A DNA stretch of 64,000 bases from Maribacter sp. (GTDB taxonomy: Bacteria > Bacteroidota > Bacteroidia > Flavobacteriales > Flavobacteriaceae). The translations under genes were made by a program, and so were the position numbers. The stretch lies in assembly GCA_024643345.1 (NCBI GenBank), contig JAHENB010000007.1, positions 9,455-73,454 on the forward strand, written 5' to 3'. Below the pieces are notes generated by a model that ran no database searches, was not told the origin of the DNA, and saw nothing but the letters and a program-made list of their open reading frames with translations. This document shows, one piece after another, positions 28,754 through 35,987 of the stretch. Positions within the stretch are counted from its first letter, which is position 1. Each line of letters begins with the position of its first letter.

Positions 28754-28772
28754 GAAAAAGAAAATAAGCCTA

Positions 28773-28817
28773 AAAGTCCTGCTTCCCATCCCGATGGGCG
28801 GCAGGGCTTTTTTTTTT
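28773..28817 (+). terminator. yceI terminator
   Basis: Outer stem AAAGTCCTGC / GCAGGGCTTT (one G-T pair), inner stem CCCATC / GATGGG, and a run of ten T from 28808. A strong intrinsic terminator isolating marR-yceI from the trp operon. Confidence 0.92.
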
Positions 28818-28829
28818 GGATTTGGACCA

Positions 28830-28859
28830 TTGTAGTTTAAAAAAAGGTTTCTATATTTG
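28830..28859 (+). promoter_or_regulatory. Promoter of the trp operon
   Basis: TTG at 28830-28832, 19 bp spacer, TATATTTG at 28852-28859: a full consensus match. Only 5 bases separate the -7 element from the ATG of the leader peptide, so the transcript should start at or within a few bases of that ATG. Confidence 0.85.
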
Positions 28860-28864
28860 GACCA

Positions 28865-28921
28865 ATGAAGAATATCGGAATCAACACTTGGTGGTGGAAC
28901 AACTTACGAACCGTATCGTGA
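28865..28921 (+). CDS. trpL: trp operon leader peptide (18 residues, three consecutive Trp)
   Basis: An 18-codon frame, MKNIGINTWWWNNLRTVS, directly after a strong promoter and before an intrinsic terminator and trpE. The three tandem TGG codons (28889-28897) are the hallmark of a trp attenuation peptide: scarce charged tRNA-Trp stalls the ribosome there. No Shine-Dalgarno sequence is present and the start site almost coincides with the ATG, so translation is probably leaderless. The peptide needs no function of its own. It is too short for ordinary gene calling. The combination of codons, position and hairpins makes the identification firm. Confidence 0.93.
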   Translation: MKNIGINTWWWNNLRTVS

Positions 28922-28924
28922 GCT

Positions 28925-28979
28925 GAGCATCATTGTAGTTAAACCATACAAAGGCTTGTCATCACGACAGGCCTTTTTT
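28925..28979 (+). promoter_or_regulatory. trp transcription attenuator (antiterminator plus terminator)
   Basis: Terminator: arms 28950-28960 and 28966-28976 form an 11-bp stem with one G-U pair around ATCAC, then a T-run. Alternative fold: GAGC (28925-28928) pairs with GCTT (28954-28957) and TTGTA (28933-28937) with TACAA (28947-28951); this captures the first terminator arm, so the two folds exclude each other. A ribosome stalled at the Trp codons leaves 28925 onward free (antitermination); one at the stop codon (28919-28921) covers it (termination). The pairings are seen in the sequence; the mechanism is by analogy with the E. coli trp attenuator. Confidence 0.85.
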
Positions 28980-29002
28980 AATTAACAGATTTACATTTTG
29001 GC

Positions 29003-30400
29003 ATGAAGTATCAATTGACTACCCATTATAAAAAGATATTGGCAGACACCATTACCCCCGTGAGCGTTTATTTGAAGATACGCGATCGGTTTCCCAACAG
29101 TATACTGTTGGAAAGTAGCGACTATCACGCCAACGATAATAGCTTCTCCTATATCTGTTGCAATCCCATAGCCTCGATCAAAGTGGAGAACGAACTGGTT
29201 CAGCAACAATATCCCGATGGCCATACCGAAAATATCGAAATTAAAAAGGATACTGATGTGGTGGGGATAATCGACGGCTTCAGTCGAAGGTTTCAGGGAT
29301 CGGCCAACGATTTTAAATTTATAGACAACGGGCTCTTCGGCTACATGGCCTACGACGCGGTACGGTATTTCGAAGATTTGAGCCTGGGCAAAAAAGCCGA
29401 TAGCATCACCATTCCCGATATCTATTATGCGGTGTACCAGAACGTGATCGCCATCAACCACTTTAAGAATGAGGCCTATATTTTCGCACATTGCTACGAA
29501 TCGGAAAGCAACATTCCCGAATTGGAGCAAATCCTCAACATCAGAAATTTTGCATCCTATAATTTCAAAAAAGAAGGAAAGGCTTCCTCCAATCTGAAAG
29601 ACGAAGAGTTCAAAGAACAGGTGCGGCTCGCCAAAAAACACTGTCAAAGGGGAGATGTTTTTCAGTTGGTACTTTCAAGAAGGTTTTCACAAGCTTTTAA
29701 AGGGGACGAATTCAATGTTTATCGCGCACTGCGTTCTATCAACCCCTCTCCATATCTCTTTTATTTTGATTATGGGGATTTCAAGATTTTTGGAAGCTCC
29801 CCTGAAGCACAATTGATCGTAAAAGATGGTAAAGCGGAAATCCACCCCATCGCCGGAACCTTTAAACGCACCGGTAACGATGAAAAAGATGCCGAATTGG
29901 CCAAAAGACTCACCGAGGACCACAAGGAAAACAGCGAACATGTGATGTTGGTAGATTTAGCGCGCAACGACCTTAGCAGAAATGGCAATATGGTACAGGT
30001 GGCCAATTATAGGGAGGTGCAGTTTTTTTCACATGTAATCCACTTGGTTTCCAAGGTCACCGGACAGAAGAAGAAAGATATCCCTACCATGAAGGTGGTT
30101 GCAGATACCTTTCCGGCAGGTACTTTAAGCGGTGCCCCCAAACATATGGCCATGCAATTGATCGAAAAATATGAAAAAACGGGCCGGGGATACTATGGTG
30201 GGGCCATTGGCTTCATGGATTTCAATGGCAATTTCAACCATGCCATCATGATCCGCACTTTTTTAAGCAAAAACCATCAATTGCATTTTCAAGCGGGTGC
30301 CGGTCTGGTCGCCGCATCTGACCCGGAAGATGAATTGCAGGAAACCTACAACAAACTTGGCGCATTGACCAAGGCATTGGAAATCGCTGAGACCATATAG
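29003..30400 (+). CDS. trpE: Anthranilate synthase component I
   Basis: Converts chorismate to anthranilate with ammonia supplied by TrpG, the first step of tryptophan synthesis. 465 residues. The N-terminal feedback site ILLESS (34-39) that binds tryptophan is intact, so allosteric inhibition is expected as well as attenuation. The chorismate-binding domain has HPIAGTFKRTG, the segment around RNDLSRNG and LSGAPKHMAMQLIEKYE, then GYYGGAIG. It is followed by trpG after 2 bases. It could in principle be a pabB homologue, but the trp leader and neighbours settle it. Confidence 0.97.
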   Translation: MKYQLTTHYKKILADTITPVSVYLKIRDRFPNSILLESSDYHANDNSFSYICCNPIASIKVENELVQQQYPDGHTENIEIKKDTDVVGIIDGFSRRFQGSANDFKFIDNGLFGYMAYDAVRYFEDLSLGKKADSITIPDIYYAVYQNVIAINHFKNEAYIFAHCYESESNIPELEQILNIRNFASYNFKKEGKASSNLKDEEFKEQVRLAKKHCQRGDVFQLVLSRRFSQAFKGDEFNVYRALRSINPSPYLFYFDYGDFKIFGSSPEAQLIVKDGKAEIHPIAGTFKRTGNDEKDAELAKRLTEDHKENSEHVMLVDLARNDLSRNGNMVQVANYREVQFFSHVIHLVSKVTGQKKKDIPTMKVVADTFPAGTLSGAPKHMAMQLIEKYEKTGRGYYGGAIGFMDFNGNFNHAIMIRTFLSKNHQLHFQAGAGLVAASDPEDELQETYNKLGALTKALEIAETI

Positions 30401-30402
30401 TA

Positions 30403-30975
30403 ATGAAGAAAATTTTAGTCATAGATAATTACGATAGTTTCACCTATAACCTGGTGCATTATTTGGAGGACTTGGATTGTGCCGTAACCGTAAAAAGAAA
30501 CGACCAACTAGATTTGGCAGAAGTGGAAGCCTTTGATAAAATAGTTTTGTCTCCCGGACCGGGAATTCCCGACGAGGCCGGCTTATTGAAAAAAATCATC
30601 GCCAAATATGCCCCCACAAAAAGTATTTTCGGGGTATGTTTGGGACAACAGGCCATCGCGGAGGTTTTTGGGGGCTCCTTGGTCAATTTAGATAAAGTAT
30701 ATCATGGCATCGCCACCAAAATTAAAATCATAAAAGATGATCCGTTGTTCAAGGACATGCCCAAAGAAATAGAAGTAGGCCGCTATCATTCTTGGGTCGT
30801 CGACACCCGTTTGCCAGATGTTTTGGAAGTCACTTCCTTGGATGAAAACGGGCAGATCATGTCGTTGCGGCATAGGCAATACGATGTATGTTCGGTACAA
30901 TTCCACCCAGAATCGGTATTGACGCCTTTTGGGATGAAAATATTGCAAAATTGGGTGAACGCACCATCGCCTTAA
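30403..30975 (+). CDS. trpG: Anthranilate synthase component II (glutamine amidotransferase)
   Basis: Releases ammonia from glutamine and passes it to TrpE. 190 residues, a class I amidotransferase. The catalytic triad is recognisable: Cys79 in GVCLGQQA, His168 and Glu170 in QFHPES. The oxyanion-strand motif SPGPGIP is at ~50-56. The start codon lies 2 bases after trpE, so expression is tightly coupled. In some bacteria the same subunit also serves PabB; no pab gene is visible here. Confidence 0.97.
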   Translation: MKKILVIDNYDSFTYNLVHYLEDLDCAVTVKRNDQLDLAEVEAFDKIVLSPGPGIPDEAGLLKKIIAKYAPTKSIFGVCLGQQAIAEVFGGSLVNLDKVYHGIATKIKIIKDDPLFKDMPKEIEVGRYHSWVVDTRLPDVLEVTSLDENGQIMSLRHRQYDVCSVQFHPESVLTPFGMKILQNWVNAPSP

Positions 30976-31041
30976 TTGAAGAAATAAGCCAAGGCAGGGA
31001 GCGATAATTTAAGCATGCGTTCCTTATGGATTAATTACAAT

Positions 31042-31065
31042 TCCCATTTTAAAGAAGCAATGGGA
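31042..31065 (+). other. Hairpin in the trpG-trpD spacer
   Basis: TCCCATT (31042-31048) and AATGGGA (31059-31065) form a 7-bp stem in the only long gap (112 bp) inside the trp operon. No T-run follows, so it is not a terminator; an mRNA processing or stability role is possible. Confidence 0.4.
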
Positions 31066-31087
31066 TGAAAACAAAAGAAATTGCGCC

Positions 31088-32080
31088 ATGAAAGAAACAT
31101 TGAATAGACTGATCAATCATGAACAGCTTTCGAAAACCGATGCCAAAACCATTTTGGTCAACATAGCGAAAGGGGATTACAATAGCAGTCAGATCGCTGC
31201 GTTCCTCACGGTATATATGATGCGAAGCATCACTATAGAAGAATTGGAAGGTTTTAGGGATGCCCTCTTGGAACTCTGTCTGGCCATCGATTTGGCGGCC
31301 TATGACCCAATCGACCTATGCGGTACCGGGGGAGATGGCAAAGACACCTTCAATATTTCAACCCTGGCCTCATTTGTTACCGCCGGGGCGGGCATTAAGG
31401 TAACCAAGCATGGTAATTATGGCGTTTCCTCAACCTGTGGCAGCAGCAATGTCATGGAATTCCTAGGTATTAAATTTAGCAGTGATGCCGATTTTTTGGA
31501 AAAGTCGATCGACAAGGCCGGTATCTGCGTCCTACATGCACCGCTGTTCCATCCCGCCATGAAAAATGTGGCGCCGATACGTCGGGAATTGGGGGTAAAG
31601 ACCTTCTTTAACATGTTGGGGCCTATGGTAAATCCGGCATTCCCAAAAAACCAAATGGTGGGGGTGTTCAATCTTGAATTGGCCCGTATGTATGGTTACC
31701 TATATCAGAATACAGATAAAAAATTCACTGTGCTGCATGCCTTGGATGGCTATGATGAAATTTCCCTTACCGGACGAACCAAGACCATATCGAACCGATC
31801 GGAAGGGATACTGGAACCGGAAGATTTTGGGGTAAAGGCCATTTCCCCAACCGACATTATAGGAGGTAAAAGCATCGCCGATTCGGCTAAAATTTTCATG
31901 GAGGTGATCGAAGGAAAGGGAACGGAAGCGCAAAACAACGTGGTCTGCGCCAATGCCGGCATCGCCATTGCCACCGTAAAAGGAATCGGCGCCATGGAAG
32001 GATTTGATCTGGCTATGGAATCATTGCGCAGCGGAAATGGCCTACGGGCATTGAAAAAATTACGGGAAATGAGCAACTAA
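31088..32080 (+). CDS. trpD: Anthranilate phosphoribosyltransferase
   Basis: Transfers phosphoribose from PRPP to anthranilate, the second step of the pathway. 330 residues, normal length. The PRPP/Mg loop DLCGTGGDGKDTFNIST (~residues 77-93) and KHGNYGVSSTCGSSNVMEFLG are diagnostic, with the further motif HPAMKNVAPIRRELGVKTFFN. Its stop overlaps the trpC start by one base (TAATG). TrpD stands alone here, not fused to TrpG as in enterics. Confidence 0.97.
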   Translation: MKETLNRLINHEQLSKTDAKTILVNIAKGDYNSSQIAAFLTVYMMRSITIEELEGFRDALLELCLAIDLAAYDPIDLCGTGGDGKDTFNISTLASFVTAGAGIKVTKHGNYGVSSTCGSSNVMEFLGIKFSSDADFLEKSIDKAGICVLHAPLFHPAMKNVAPIRRELGVKTFFNMLGPMVNPAFPKNQMVGVFNLELARMYGYLYQNTDKKFTVLHALDGYDEISLTGRTKTISNRSEGILEPEDFGVKAISPTDIIGGKSIADSAKIFMEVIEGKGTEAQNNVVCANAGIAIATVKGIGAMEGFDLAMESLRSGNGLRALKKLREMSN

Positions 32081-32865
32081 TGGATATCCTTGAAAAAATT
32101 GTCGTAGACAAACACAAAGAAGTATTGTTGAAAAAATCGATTGTCCCTATCGCACAATTGGAAAACGCCATGCTTTTTAATCGGACCACCTTTTCTTTGG
32201 CCGAGGGCTTAAGAAATCGAGGTGCCGGAATCATTGCGGAACACAAACGACGATCGCCGTCAAAATCGATTATAAATCAGGATTTAAGTGTTCAGGAAGT
32301 GGCTTTGGGGTATCAACGGGCCGGGGCTTGTGGGATGTCGGTCTTGACCGATGGCAAATATTTCGGGGGATCATTGGATGATCTGCTTTTGGCACGTGCC
32401 GCAACCGGAATACCGCTTTTGCGGAAAGAATTTGTTATCGATGAATACCAGATCATTGAAGCCAGGGCCTATGGTGCCGATGTAATTTTATTGATCGCGG
32501 CCATCTTGTCCAAGGCACAGATCAAGTCGTTCTCGGAATTGGCCAAAAGTCTGCAAATGGAAGTGCTTTTGGAAGTTCATGACCAAGCGGAATTGGACCG
32601 GTCGATCATGCCCAGCCTAGACCTGTTGGGCGTAAACAATCGCAATCTGAAAACCTTTGAAGTAAGCCTCGAAACCAGTAAATCGCTTGCCAATGCCATC
32701 CCCGATGAATTCGTAAAGGTCTCCGAAAGTGGTATCGGCAACGTGGGTTCTATCAAAGAACTCATGCAATTTGGCTTTCAAGGGTTTCTAATCGGGGAAC
32801 AATTCATGGTTTCTGCCAAGCCAGGGGAAAGGGCCCGGGAATTTATCGAACTATTGACACTATGA
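32080..32865 (+). CDS. trpC: Indole-3-glycerol phosphate synthase
   Basis: Ring-closing decarboxylation of CdRP to indole-3-glycerol phosphate. 261-residue TIM barrel. Seen motifs: IIAEHKRRSPSK (catalytic Lys), SVLTDGKYFGGSLDDL, LRKEFVIDEYQI (second Lys), VLLEVHDQAELD, LGVNNRNLKTFEV and VSESGIGNVGSI. Separate from trpF, unlike the enteric TrpC-TrpF fusion. The stop overlaps the next start as ATGA. Confidence 0.97.
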   Translation: MDILEKIVVDKHKEVLLKKSIVPIAQLENAMLFNRTTFSLAEGLRNRGAGIIAEHKRRSPSKSIINQDLSVQEVALGYQRAGACGMSVLTDGKYFGGSLDDLLLARAATGIPLLRKEFVIDEYQIIEARAYGADVILLIAAILSKAQIKSFSELAKSLQMEVLLEVHDQAELDRSIMPSLDLLGVNNRNLKTFEVSLETSKSLANAIPDEFVKVSESGIGNVGSIKELMQFGFQGFLIGEQFMVSAKPGERAREFIELLTL

Positions 32866-33425
32866 AAATCGCCTATATCCTTTATGACGGGATTACCACT
32901 CTCGACTTTATCGGCATTTACGATCCGGTAAGTCGGCTAAGATCCATGGGGTTTTTGCCTGATCTCAGCTGGCATCTCTGTGCAGGCCAACCAAAGGTCA
33001 AAGACCATTTCGGCCTGGAAATCATCGTAGATAAGGTTTGGCCCAAATTGGATGGGTACGATGCCCTTGTAGTCCCGGGGGGCTTTGGGAGCAGGGCAAT
33101 GCAACAAGACAAAGATTTCATCAAATGGCTGCAGACAGCAGGTAAAGACACGCTAAAAATTTCCATTTGCACCGGAAGTCTATTACTGGGAGCCGCTGGT
33201 TTTTTAAAGGGGAAAAGAGCGACCACCCATTTTGCCGATTACCAACGGCTCGAAACTTACGCCAAGGAAGTACTGCGGGAACAAATTGTGGATGATGGTG
33301 ATGTCATCACGGCAGGGGCGGTCGCGGCATCTTTGGATCTGGGTTTATACCTTTGCCAGAAGTGGGCCGGCGAAGGAGCCATGGAAAAAATTGCAAAATC
33401 GATGAACTATAAGTTGGTGCGATGA
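32862..33425 (+). CDS. DJ-1/PfpI family protein inside the trp operon
   Basis: 187 residues, single flavodoxin-like domain. The nucleophile elbow is SICTGSLLLGAAG, with Cys103 followed by Thr104; an Asp lies near the N-terminus in TLDFIG (Asp15), and VVPGGFGSRAM precedes the elbow. This Asp/Cys/Thr set resembles isonitrile hydratase-type members more than proteases or DJ-1 chaperones. The gene overlaps trpC and trpF by 4 bases at both ends (ATGA), so it is translated with them and is not a passing insertion. No role in tryptophan synthesis is known to me. The substrate is unknown. Confidence 0.9.
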   Translation: MKIAYILYDGITTLDFIGIYDPVSRLRSMGFLPDLSWHLCAGQPKVKDHFGLEIIVDKVWPKLDGYDALVVPGGFGSRAMQQDKDFIKWLQTAGKDTLKISICTGSLLLGAAGFLKGKRATTHFADYQRLETYAKEVLREQIVDDGDVITAGAVAASLDLGLYLCQKWAGEGAMEKIAKSMNYKLVR

Positions 33426-34030
33426 AATTAAAGGTCTGCGGCATGAAACATAATGTCTTGGAGGTGGCGGGCTTAAAACCCGATTATCTAGGGTTCATTT
33501 TTTGGGAGCCATCGAAACGCTTTTTTGAAGGAGCCATTCCAAAGTTACCTGATAACATCAAAAAAGTTGGCGTTTTTGTTGATGCCACCTTGAAGGAAGT
33601 CAACGATCATATCGTTCAGCACGAACTTCAAATGGTGCAGTTGCACGGAAGGGAAACGCCGGCATTCTGCGCGGCCTTGCGCGATAGGGAAGTTGCGGTG
33701 ATCAAGGTATTTTCAATTGAAGATAATTTTGATTTTGAGGTGCTTAAACCCTATGAAGCAAGCTGTGATTACTTTTTGTTCGATACAAAAGGCAAACTAC
33801 CTGGAGGGAATGGTTTTGTTTTTAATTGGTCGGTTTTAAAAGAATACCCCTTGACCAAGCCATATTTTTTAAGTGGCGGTATCGGATTGGCGGAAAGCGA
33901 TTTGATAATGGAATTTTTAAAAAGACCCGAATCGAAGTATTGCCACGCCGTTGACGTTAACAGCAAGTTCGAGTCTCGGCCAGGATTAAAAGAGGTTGAG
34001 AAATTAGAAAAATTCAAAAAATTACTATGA
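33422..34030 (+). CDS. trpF: Phosphoribosylanthranilate isomerase
   Basis: Amadori rearrangement of PRA to CdRP, between TrpD and TrpC in the pathway. 202 residues, small TIM barrel. The catalytic Cys lies in KLKVCGMKH at the N-terminus and the general acid Asp in FLFDTKGKLPGG; LQMVQLHGRE and the C-terminal phosphate-binding FLSGGIG and AVDVNSKFESRPGLK are typical. The start overlaps the PfpI gene stop and its stop overlaps the trpB start, each by 4 bases. Confidence 0.96.
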   Translation: MKLKVCGMKHNVLEVAGLKPDYLGFIFWEPSKRFFEGAIPKLPDNIKKVGVFVDATLKEVNDHIVQHELQMVQLHGRETPAFCAALRDREVAVIKVFSIEDNFDFEVLKPYEASCDYFLFDTKGKLPGGNGFVFNWSVLKEYPLTKPYFLSGGIGLAESDLIMEFLKRPESKYCHAVDVNSKFESRPGLKEVEKLEKFKKLL

Positions 34031-35211
34031 GCACATACCACGCGAACGAAAAAGGGTATTATGGTGAGTTTGGCGGGGCCTTTATCCCTGAGATGCTTTA
34101 CCCCAACACCGAAGAACTGAGACAAAATTACATCAAAATCATGGAGGACCCGGGCTTTAAAGCGGAGTTCGACCAGTTGTTAAAAGACTATGTGGGCCGC
34201 CCTACCCCACTCTATTTTGCGAAACGGCTCTCCGATAAATATCGAACCAAGATATATCTCAAGAGGGAAGACCTCTGCCATACTGGGGCCCATAAGGTAA
34301 ACAACACCATTGGCCAGATCTTAATGGCCAAGAAATTGGGCAAGAACCGCATCATTGCCGAAACGGGCGCGGGACAGCACGGGGTGGCCACGGCCACGGT
34401 CTGCGCCTTGATGGGCATTGAATGCGTAGTGTATATGGGGGAAAAAGACATTGCACGTCAAGCACCCAATGTAGCACGGATGAAAATGTTGGGAGCCACG
34501 GTAAGACCTGCCCTTTCCGGGAGCAGAACATTGAAAGATGCAACGAACGAAGCCATCAGGGATTGGATCAACAACCCCGTAAATACCCATTACATCATCG
34601 GCTCTGTGGTGGGGCCACATCCATACCCCGATATGGTGGCCCGGTTTCAGTCGGTCATTTCCGAAGAAATCAAATGGCAATTGCTAGAAAAAGAAGGCCG
34701 GGATTATCCCGATTTTGTGATTGCCTGCGTAGGCGGTGGCAGTAACGCTGCCGGTGCCTACTATCATTATCTCGACCGACCGGAAGTGGGCATTATTGCC
34801 GTGGAGGCGGCGGGAAAAGGGGTCCATTCGGGAGAAAGCGCCGCAACTTCCGCCCTGGGCAGGGTCGGTATCATCCATGGAAGCAAAACCTTGTTGATGC
34901 AGACCCAAGACGGGCAGATCACCGAACCCTATTCCATCTCGGCTGGATTGGATTATCCGGGGGTAGGGCCCATGCATGCCCATTTGTATCGATCGGGCCG
35001 CGGAGAATTCATCTCCATAACCGATGATGAGGCCATGACCGCAGGTCTGATGGTTTCCCAAATGGAAGGCATTATCCCCGCGATTGAAACCTCGCACGCC
35101 TTCGCCATTTTCGACCACAGGCGATTTAGGCCAGACGATATTATCGTAATCAATCTTTCTGGACGTGGCGATAAAGACCTCAGCACCTATATCGATTATT
35201 TTAAACTCTAA
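34027..35211 (+). CDS. trpB: Tryptophan synthase beta chain
   Basis: PLP enzyme that condenses indole with serine. 394 residues, the standard TrpB1 type. The PLP lysine is in HTGAHKVNNTIGQ, the phosphate-binding loop is CVGGGSNAAGAYYH, and the C-terminus has HAFAIFDHRRF. The N-terminus YYGEFGGAFIPEML is typical of the form that partners TrpA. It is followed by trpA after 8 bases. Confidence 0.98.
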   Translation: MSTYHANEKGYYGEFGGAFIPEMLYPNTEELRQNYIKIMEDPGFKAEFDQLLKDYVGRPTPLYFAKRLSDKYRTKIYLKREDLCHTGAHKVNNTIGQILMAKKLGKNRIIAETGAGQHGVATATVCALMGIECVVYMGEKDIARQAPNVARMKMLGATVRPALSGSRTLKDATNEAIRDWINNPVNTHYIIGSVVGPHPYPDMVARFQSVISEEIKWQLLEKEGRDYPDFVIACVGGGSNAAGAYYHYLDRPEVGIIAVEAAGKGVHSGESAATSALGRVGIIHGSKTLLMQTQDGQITEPYSISAGLDYPGVGPMHAHLYRSGRGEFISITDDEAMTAGLMVSQMEGIIPAIETSHAFAIFDHRRFRPDDIIVINLSGRGDKDLSTYIDYFKL

Positions 35212-35219
35212 ATCCGCAA

Positions 35220-35987
35220 ATGAACAGAATCAACAAAAAATTAAACGAACCAGGGAAACTCCTCTCTATTTATTTTACTGCCGGATATCCCAAGATGGCG
35301 GATACGGTTCATATTATTCAGGAATTGGAGAAAAACGGGGTGGATATGGTAGAAATCGGCTTGCCGTTCAGCGACCCCTTGGCCGATGGGCCCACCATAC
35401 AGCAGAGTTCCACTGCCGCGTTGAGGAATGGGATGACCACTGAAAAGCTCTTTGCTCAATTGAAGGATATTCGAAAAACGGTATCCATACCATTGATCTT
35501 GATGGGGTATTTTAATCCGATGCTGCAATACGGCGTGGAGGCCTTTTGTGAAAAATGTAATGACATCGGAATCGATGGCATCATTATGCCCGACCTTCCC
35601 TTGGATGTTTATCTGGAAGAATATGAGACTACCTTTAAAAAGTTCGGATTGATCAACGTTTTCCTGATTACGCCCCAAACCAGCGATGATCGCATCCGAC
35701 AAATCGACAAGGCTTCGCAAGGATTCATTTACATGGTAAGCTCGGCCAGTGTTACGGGCTCAAAGACGGGCTTCGGCAAAACCCAGACCGAATATTTTGA
35801 CCGCATTGCCTCATTGAAACTGCATAACCCTCAAATCGTGGGATTTGGCATCAACAATGCCGACACCTTTCAACAAGCTACCGGAAAGGCCAAAGGCGCT
35901 ATCATCGGTTCGGCATTCATCAAGTACCTTACAGAAAAAGGAGTGGCCAATATCGGTGACTTCATCAAAACGATTAGGCCCCTATGA
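35220..35987 (+). CDS. trpA: Tryptophan synthase alpha chain
   Basis: Cleaves indole-3-glycerol phosphate to indole, which is channelled to TrpB. 255 residues. Catalytic Glu in MVEIGLPFSDPLADGPTIQ and catalytic Asp in IIMPDLPLDVY; the phosphate-binding segment is FGINNADTF...GAIIGSAFIKY. Some TrpA loop residues are shortened relative to E. coli (268 aa). Its stop overlaps the start of a 75-codon gene as ATGA. Confidence 0.97.
   Translation: MNRINKKLNEPGKLLSIYFTAGYPKMADTVHIIQELEKNGVDMVEIGLPFSDPLADGPTIQQSSTAALRNGMTTEKLFAQLKDIRKTVSIPLILMGYFNPMLQYGVEAFCEKCNDIGIDGIIMPDLPLDVYLEEYETTFKKFGLINVFLITPQTSDDRIRQIDKASQGFIYMVSSASVTGSKTGFGKTQTEYFDRIASLKLHNPQIVGFGINNADTFQQATGKAKGAIIGSAFIKYLTEKGVANIGDFIKTIRPL

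Follow-up and report, generated by a model that had tools for sequence, protein, structure and literature searches.

Transcription attenuation by a translating ribosome requires prompt ribosome loading behind RNA polymerase, and the mRNAs of Bacteroidota are mostly without Shine-Dalgarno sites. How a trp operon could be controlled in this way in a flavobacterium was the question raised by the DNA upstream of trpE in Maribacter sp., of which a 64,000-nucleotide stretch (hereafter the window) was analysed. A first-pass annotation had proposed a complete ribosome-mediated attenuator at this place, and had pointed out that Shine-Dalgarno-driven initiation is mostly absent from the phylum. The attenuator (28852–28979 in window coordinates, Table 1) is located directly upstream of the tryptophan biosynthesis genes: a trpEGDC-(DJ-1/PfpI)-FBA cluster starts 23 nt past it, and the leader stop and the trpE start are 81 nt apart. 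The closest named relatives of the window's TrpE (82–88% identity, best 80 of 576) were from uncultured Flavobacteriaceae, Maribacter and similar bacteria. Its score was below the curated cut-off of TIGR00564, which was likewise exceeded in none of the 80 genomes of a class-wide draw. It was also observed that the DJ-1/PfpI-family gene (32862–33425) sits between trpC and trpF within the cluster, with a 4-base overlap with each.

Table 1. Features of the trp attenuator and of the genes behind it, in window coordinates.
Feature	Position	Strand	Basis
TTG, possible −33 element (weak)	28830–28832	+	sequence
−7 promoter box TATATTTG	28852–28859	+	fits Bacteroidota −7 consensus; 5 nt ahead of leader ATG
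Predicted transcription start, 0–1 nt 5′ UTR	28864–28865	+	inferred from published box-to-start spacing
Leader ORF MKNIGINTWWWNNLRTVS, 18 codons, ATG at 28865, stop UGA 28919–28921	28865–28921	+	sequence
Three tandem Trp codons (TGG ×3)	28889–28897	+	sequence
1:2 (protector) hairpin, 28903–28909:28916–28922 and 28889–28896:28928–28935	28889–28935	+	fold
2:3 antiterminator, closing helix 28916–28921:28962–28967, upper helices 28925–28928:28954–28957 and 28933–28937:28947–28951	28916–28967	+	fold
3:4 intrinsic terminator, 11 pairs, loop 5, T-rich tail to 28979	28950–28979 (stem 28950–28976)	+	terminator scan
trpE, first structural gene	29003–30400	+	TIGR00564 E 1.4e-129 (under curated cut-off); Pfam Anth_synt_I_N and Chorismate_bind
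trpG, trpD, trpC, DJ-1/PfpI gene, trpF, trpB, trpA	30403–35987	+	coordinates and family matches

A known RNA family was found at this position. Rfam RF01692 (Bacteroid-trp) matched 28845–28960 with 42.9 bits, below its gathering score of 49, at an E value of 5.3e-4 in a 301-base search and of 0.00155 genome-wide. The alignment spanned the full model (1–131) with several non-standard pairs, and the Trp-rich leader ORF and the 1:2 hairpin lay in the modelled place. Among 199 Flavobacteriaceae genomes, RF01692 was matched at E ≤ 0.01 in 154 and above the gathering score in 122; in a draw over the phylum it was matched in 35 of 296 genomes. From the leader and helices shared with above-score relatives, the element of the window is identified as a homologue of RF01692, one which Rfam itself would not list. 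Bacteroid-trp was listed as a likely cis-regulatory RNA by Weinberg et al. 2010 (PMC2864571), and was noted upstream of the F. psychrophilum trp operon (PMC6414381). Since the family has already been described, the attenuator is not new in kind. The window and RF01692 are alike in their position before trp genes, in the Trp leader ORF and in the 1:2 hairpin over the Trp codons, and the 3′ end of the model carries the same GGCUUGUC segment as the window. The Rfam structure line draws the 1:2 hairpin alone and leaves the antiterminator undrawn, and the model stops in the 5′ arm of the terminator. Columns 1 to ~20 of the model were observed to align with the promoter box of the window, DNA which is probably untranscribed in this clade.

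Neither a T-box nor the E. coli trp leader was among the six Rfam matches up to E 5 in 28760–29060. Weak matches to STnc370, OrzO-P, L10 leader and Atu_C9 were far under their gathering scores and were taken as chance; above the gathering score, the scan of the window for other Rfam riboregulators gave just five tRNAs. The E. coli trpL leader has tandem Trp codons, segments 1 to 4 and a stop codon at segment 2. The logic of the window's leader is alike in all three respects; in contrast to trpL, it probably starts leaderless or near-leaderless, with no Shine-Dalgarno site.

The 18-codon leader with its three consecutive TGG codons and the intrinsic terminator were present as first annotated, and a single terminator was found in 401 bases compared with 0.3 ± 0.5 in shuffled sequences. 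It might be argued that a short ORF happens by chance to precede an ordinary terminator here and that tryptophan is not sensed. Terminators of this kind are frequent (another hairpin with T's behind it was seen by eye after the upstream YceI gene, at ~28775–28820, unlisted by the terminator scan), and short ORFs with two adjacent Trp codons arose by chance farther upstream at some loci (L320, L323, L337), so that single WW cases are weak. However, the comparison with relatives showed that the tandem Trp codons were conserved: 183 of 187 leaders had three consecutive ones, the other four had two, and a WWW leader was found before trpE at all 80 named trpE loci (best 80 of 576). Together with the exclusive, co-evolving folds described below, this leaves the chance-ORF explanation with almost no probability. 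The 187 leaders were obtained from 197 by removing eight named loci with an inserted gene (see below) and L158 and L167, two Flavobacteriaceae trp leaders in which TTG was seen by eye in place of the start ATG. At least three loci were present with the same leader in both the named set and the other set (L033/L184, L061/L194, L083/L164); the other set was not one row per genus, and in part of the rows drawn by an RF01692 match trpE is presumed to follow.

The leader was within 300 nt of trpE in 72 of the 80 named loci. In the remaining eight, the Trp codons were 466–554 nt upstream of trpE, with a GIY-YIG gene intervening. This small gene is located between an intact attenuator and trpE (L040, L073, L076, L087, L091, L097, L099, L108); it has 94 codons in seven loci and 71 from the first ATG in L040, and is flanked by short stretches resembling inverted repeats by eye. 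The family call came from one protein of the eight that was scanned. The leader also extended beyond the detection of RF01692. Twenty of the 45 Flavobacteriaceae genomes without a match were searched, of which 13 gave a full-length TrpE-like match with upstream sequence, and a WW or WWW leader was found in 12 of them. In the class-wide draw of 80 genomes, a strong TrpE-like match was found in 25. After leaving out the window's own locus and two at contig starts, 23 loci were examined, and a WW leader within ~231 nt of trpE was found in 16, 15 of these outside the window's family. Of the other seven, one had a WW leader ~1.4 kb upstream and six had none, one of the six with only ~190 nt of upstream sequence.

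The RNA made before segment 4 (28916–28967) adopted a minimum-energy fold of −12.9 kcal/mol with three helices. Two of them had been annotated before as a second fold that excludes the terminator; they are real, but they make up just the upper section of the antiterminator, and the closing helix had been missed. It is formed between UCGUGA, which includes the stop UGA, and UCACGA, which lies in the terminator loop and extends over two bases into the 3′ arm. The closing helix and the terminator were mutually exclusive in folding. The region folded more stably than expected by chance, with z values of −3.7 for 28865–28985 and −2.6 for 28865–28978.

The effect of ribosome position was computed for the 187 leaders with the ribosome edge set 13 nt beyond the first base of the A-site codon, as known for the ribosome footprint. 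For the window, the probability of the 2:3 pairing was 0.95–0.97 when a Trp codon, whichever of the three, occupied the A site, 0.00 with the ribosome at the stop codon and 0.14 without a ribosome, in which case segment 2 was paired upstream (1:2) with a probability of 0.84. In the whole set, 2:3 was favoured in 182–183 leaders when stalled, in none at the stop codon and in 62 without a ribosome; the helix was scored in each row as the best contiguous pairing, which biases the counts towards 2:3. Because 62 of 187 leaders favoured 2:3 without a ribosome, a default-off state is not predicted everywhere. In the full-length RNA, the terminator was preferred in every ribosome state (0.91–0.97 for the window), which implies that antitermination, and thus the control, must be kinetic. 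Two features of a ribosome-mediated attenuator were thus found, namely a leader ORF with tandem codons for the regulated amino acid, and a terminator and an antiterminator which are exclusive and ribosome-dependent, the latter in folding and swap tests only.

The pairings were then compared in an alignment of 115 rows, which contained the window and loci sampled from the family and from the phylum. The closing 2:3 helix was paired in 671 of 690 cells (97%, slid controls 3–72%) and the 3:4 terminator in 1247 of 1259 (99%, slid controls 19–63%). Conservation in place was moderate for the upper antiterminator helices, paired in 332/458 (72%) and 249/389 (64%) cells, and for the aligned parts of the 1:2 hairpin, paired in 455/786 (58%) and 451/738 (61%). 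As some slid versions of the 1:2 hairpin were as high or higher (58 and 65%), these aligned counts prove little. Individual minimum-energy folds are better evidence for the 1:2 hairpin: segment 2 was paired upstream in 183 of 187 rows, compared with 75 of 187 when the upstream sequence was shuffled. The best contiguous 2:3 helix overlapped the stop codon in 140 of 187 rows, and in several lineages (L014, L015, L112) the stop codon was shifted with the pairing retained.

Under joint evolution of segment 2 and the terminator, the strongest pairing of a leader is expected with the terminator of the same locus. Across 63 distinct terminator arms, one row for each, the pairing energy was −13.12 kcal/mol with the own arm and −12.15 ± 0.23 kcal/mol with swapped arms, and none of 3000 swaps was as good; the decoys were null (reversed 513, upstream 1903 and shuffled 845 of 3000). 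For 27 further loci, which were chosen solely for a WW leader near trpE and a terminator and not for pairing, the values were −13.8 and −10.41 ± 0.50 kcal/mol (0 of 5000; reversed decoy 2268 of 5000), and for all 88 distinct arms they were −13.36 and −11.24 ± 0.23, again with none of 5000 as good. The swaps ignore relatedness, so that these fractions are not exact probabilities. For a single sequence, a median of 35% of the swapped arms paired equally well; the gain was small within Flavobacteriaceae because most of their terminators are nearly identical. By eye, the paired segments read UCGUGA:UCACGA in the window, UCGUAAUC:GAUUACGA in L190, GUCGCAA:UUGCGAC in L196, GGCAACC:GGUUGCC in L180 and GUGAACAG:CUGUUCAU in L321. 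A permutation on 19 'divergent' rows was discounted, the rows having been chosen by eye once the pairing had been seen. The 115-row alignment contained 8 double-change cells for the closing 2:3 helix (slid versions 2–8) and 16 for the inner helix (slid versions 0–21). Double changes thus fail to set 2:3 apart from slid versions, and the case for co-evolution therefore rests on the swap tests. By these tests, segments 2 and 3 co-evolve.

The leader peptide itself was also considered. Its C-terminal part, WWWNNLR, was alike across the named clade and was lost beyond it (WWWCFRN-stop and others). The Leu-Arg codons UUACGA constitute one arm of the inner 1:2 stem, so that RNA pairing can explain the conservation of Leu-Arg, and a conserved peptide was disfavoured. 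This bears on another explanation, in which the terminated leader RNA or the peptide acts in trans, besides or instead of attenuation. In the phylum-distant Sinorhizobium meliloti, according to the text consulted, the RNA of the trp attenuator starts with the leader-ORF AUG, and this short terminated RNA (rnTrpL) and the peptide (peTrpL) additionally act in trans (PMC7298713). Both systems are Trp attenuators with an AUG-initial RNA, which for the window is predicted, and the similarity of WWWNNLR across the named clade would fit a function of this type. However, outside the clade it is the RNA pairing that is kept and not the peptide after WWW, and within it the UUACGA codons can be accounted for as above. 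An action in trans is therefore considered improbable. The element is judged to be a real, functional-looking trp attenuator; ribosome-mediated attenuation, as first proposed, is the best reading of it and is supported by conservation. We regard it as very probable that it is a tRNA-Trp-sensing, ribosome-mediated transcription attenuator of the trp operon, with control in vivo as a prediction.

The remaining part of the question concerns how the leader is translated. The consensus promoter claimed earlier was confirmed as a Bacteroidota −7 box with a weak TTG upstream, but not as a generic promoter: a sigma-70 scan of the attenuator region found none, which was expected in this phylum since the scan addresses the wrong promoter type. 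F. johnsoniae has a weak −33 motif, and in its probable promoters 4 or 5 nt separate the −7 box from the start site (PMC6847099), and the promoter box of F. psychrophilum is at −12 to −5 (PMC9723704). Given the published distance of 4–5 nt and the spacing of 5 nt in the window, transcription would start at 28864 or 28865, with a 5′ UTR of 1 or 0 nt. The trp leader is thus probably read from a leaderless or near-leaderless mRNA, as inferred from promoter spacing. The likely answer to the Shine-Dalgarno puzzle is that such a leader requires no Shine-Dalgarno or other ribosome-binding site.

The distance from box end to leader ATG was 4–8 nt in 70 of 73 rows (the window and 72 named related loci, the eight GIY-YIG loci being left out of the spacing counts), compared with 83 of 14347 background upstream positions having a box at this distance. 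Among the non-overlapping ORFs of at least 150 codons in the window, a box 3–8 nt ahead of ATG was found in 2 of 46. The smallest value was taken if several boxes or ATGs were possible, which leans to short spacing (L021 also has boxes at 18 and 24). Outside the named set, 27 of 114 rows had a spacing of 4–8 nt, and 13–22 nt was commonest (63 of 114). These latter rows would agree with a different explanation, in which the attenuator is real but the true start is elsewhere, the leader mRNA is not leaderless and the 5-nt spacing is incidental. Leaderless mRNAs are also otherwise rare: they make up 5.5% of mapped F. psychrophilum mRNAs (PMC9723704), ~3.7% of the 5′ UTRs of B. thetaiotaomicron are shorter than 10 nt (PMC7366714), and 87% of predicted F. 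johnsoniae transcripts have a leader of more than 10 nt (PMC6847099). Nevertheless, the near-constant spacing in the window and named rows against the scarcity of the box in the background makes a start elsewhere unlikely.

Short spacing was further mapped on a TrpE tree of 62 rows, for which every fourth named locus was used (20, minus L073 and L097), and 12 rows without extracted TrpE as well as L130 were left out. The short-spacing state required at least 8 changes, 3 of them forced by well-supported branches, whereas the shuffled mean was 21.0. In the window's part of the tree, 22 of 24 rows had short spacing. Short box spacing is therefore typical of the clade, yet switchable.

The following sequence of events is proposed. 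RNA polymerase would begin at the leader AUG or one base earlier, and a ribosome would load onto the (near-)leaderless 5′ end. With ample tryptophan, the ribosome would pass UGG-UGG-UGG and halt at the UGA inside segment 2, masking it; segment 3 would then pair with segment 4, and transcription would end at ~28979. Under a shortage of charged tRNA-Trp, the ribosome would be expected to stall on the Trp codons and to open the 1:2 hairpin, and the freed segment 2 (28916–28921) would capture segment 3 (28962–28967 and above), so that the polymerase proceeds into trpE. Without translation, 1:2 would form, followed by the terminator. Taken together, we consider it fairly likely that tryptophan is sensed in this clade by a ribosome starting on a leaderless mRNA, with the box locked ~5 nt before the AUG and the 5′ end replacing a ribosome-binding site; that one attenuator core serves both lineages with a leaderless start and lineages with a short UTR, with several switches between the two; that the stop codon at the same time belongs to the antiterminator; and that the system is present across much of Bacteroidia, beyond the detection of RF01692.

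Two of these details, the co-evolving antiterminator running through the stop codon and the probable leaderless start, were not found in the sources consulted. A description of leaderless attenuators in Bacteroidota was likewise not found in the open-access texts searched. A transcriptome study of F. psychrophilum reports clues that leader peptides upstream of amino-acid operons act in attenuation, as well as conserved 5′ elements at pheA and hisG; (near-)leaderless attenuator leaders go unmentioned in the text consulted (PMC9723704).

Other candidate leaders were sought in the window's genome by a box 3–7 nt before ATG. TATATTTG was found at 29 places (reversed pattern 8) and TATCTTTG at 19 (reversed 5); given this three- to fourfold excess over the reversed patterns, a few dozen leaderless genes may exist in the genome. 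Among the 46 of 48 such places inspected (L200 and L240 excluded), no attenuator-like leader peptide was found besides the trp leader, and several places were seen to start long ORFs. Separately, all 18 loci with a hisG match (L248–L265) had a His-rich short ORF ~130–230 nt upstream of it under a loose criterion (HHH or at least four His), and 18 of the 20 loci with a prephenate dehydratase match (L266–L285, with none seen in L266 and L278) had a Phe-rich one ~150–210 nt upstream. In the window's genome these ORFs read MRKNTTHHHFYHCAQAR (L255) and MTKQYFWNGFYFYFFFKRGTGLL (L273), each followed by a terminator-like hairpin by eye. The box of the hisG leader resembles TAnnTTTA by eye, ~7 nt before the ATG, and this leader is perhaps near-leaderless too.

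If the leaderless start is true, a leader peptide on an AUG-initial mRNA would be a simple answer to the need for prompt ribosome loading. With the antiterminator, which is absent from the Rfam structure line, now defined, compensatory mutants can be designed, and a better model that includes it would find trp leaders across the class.
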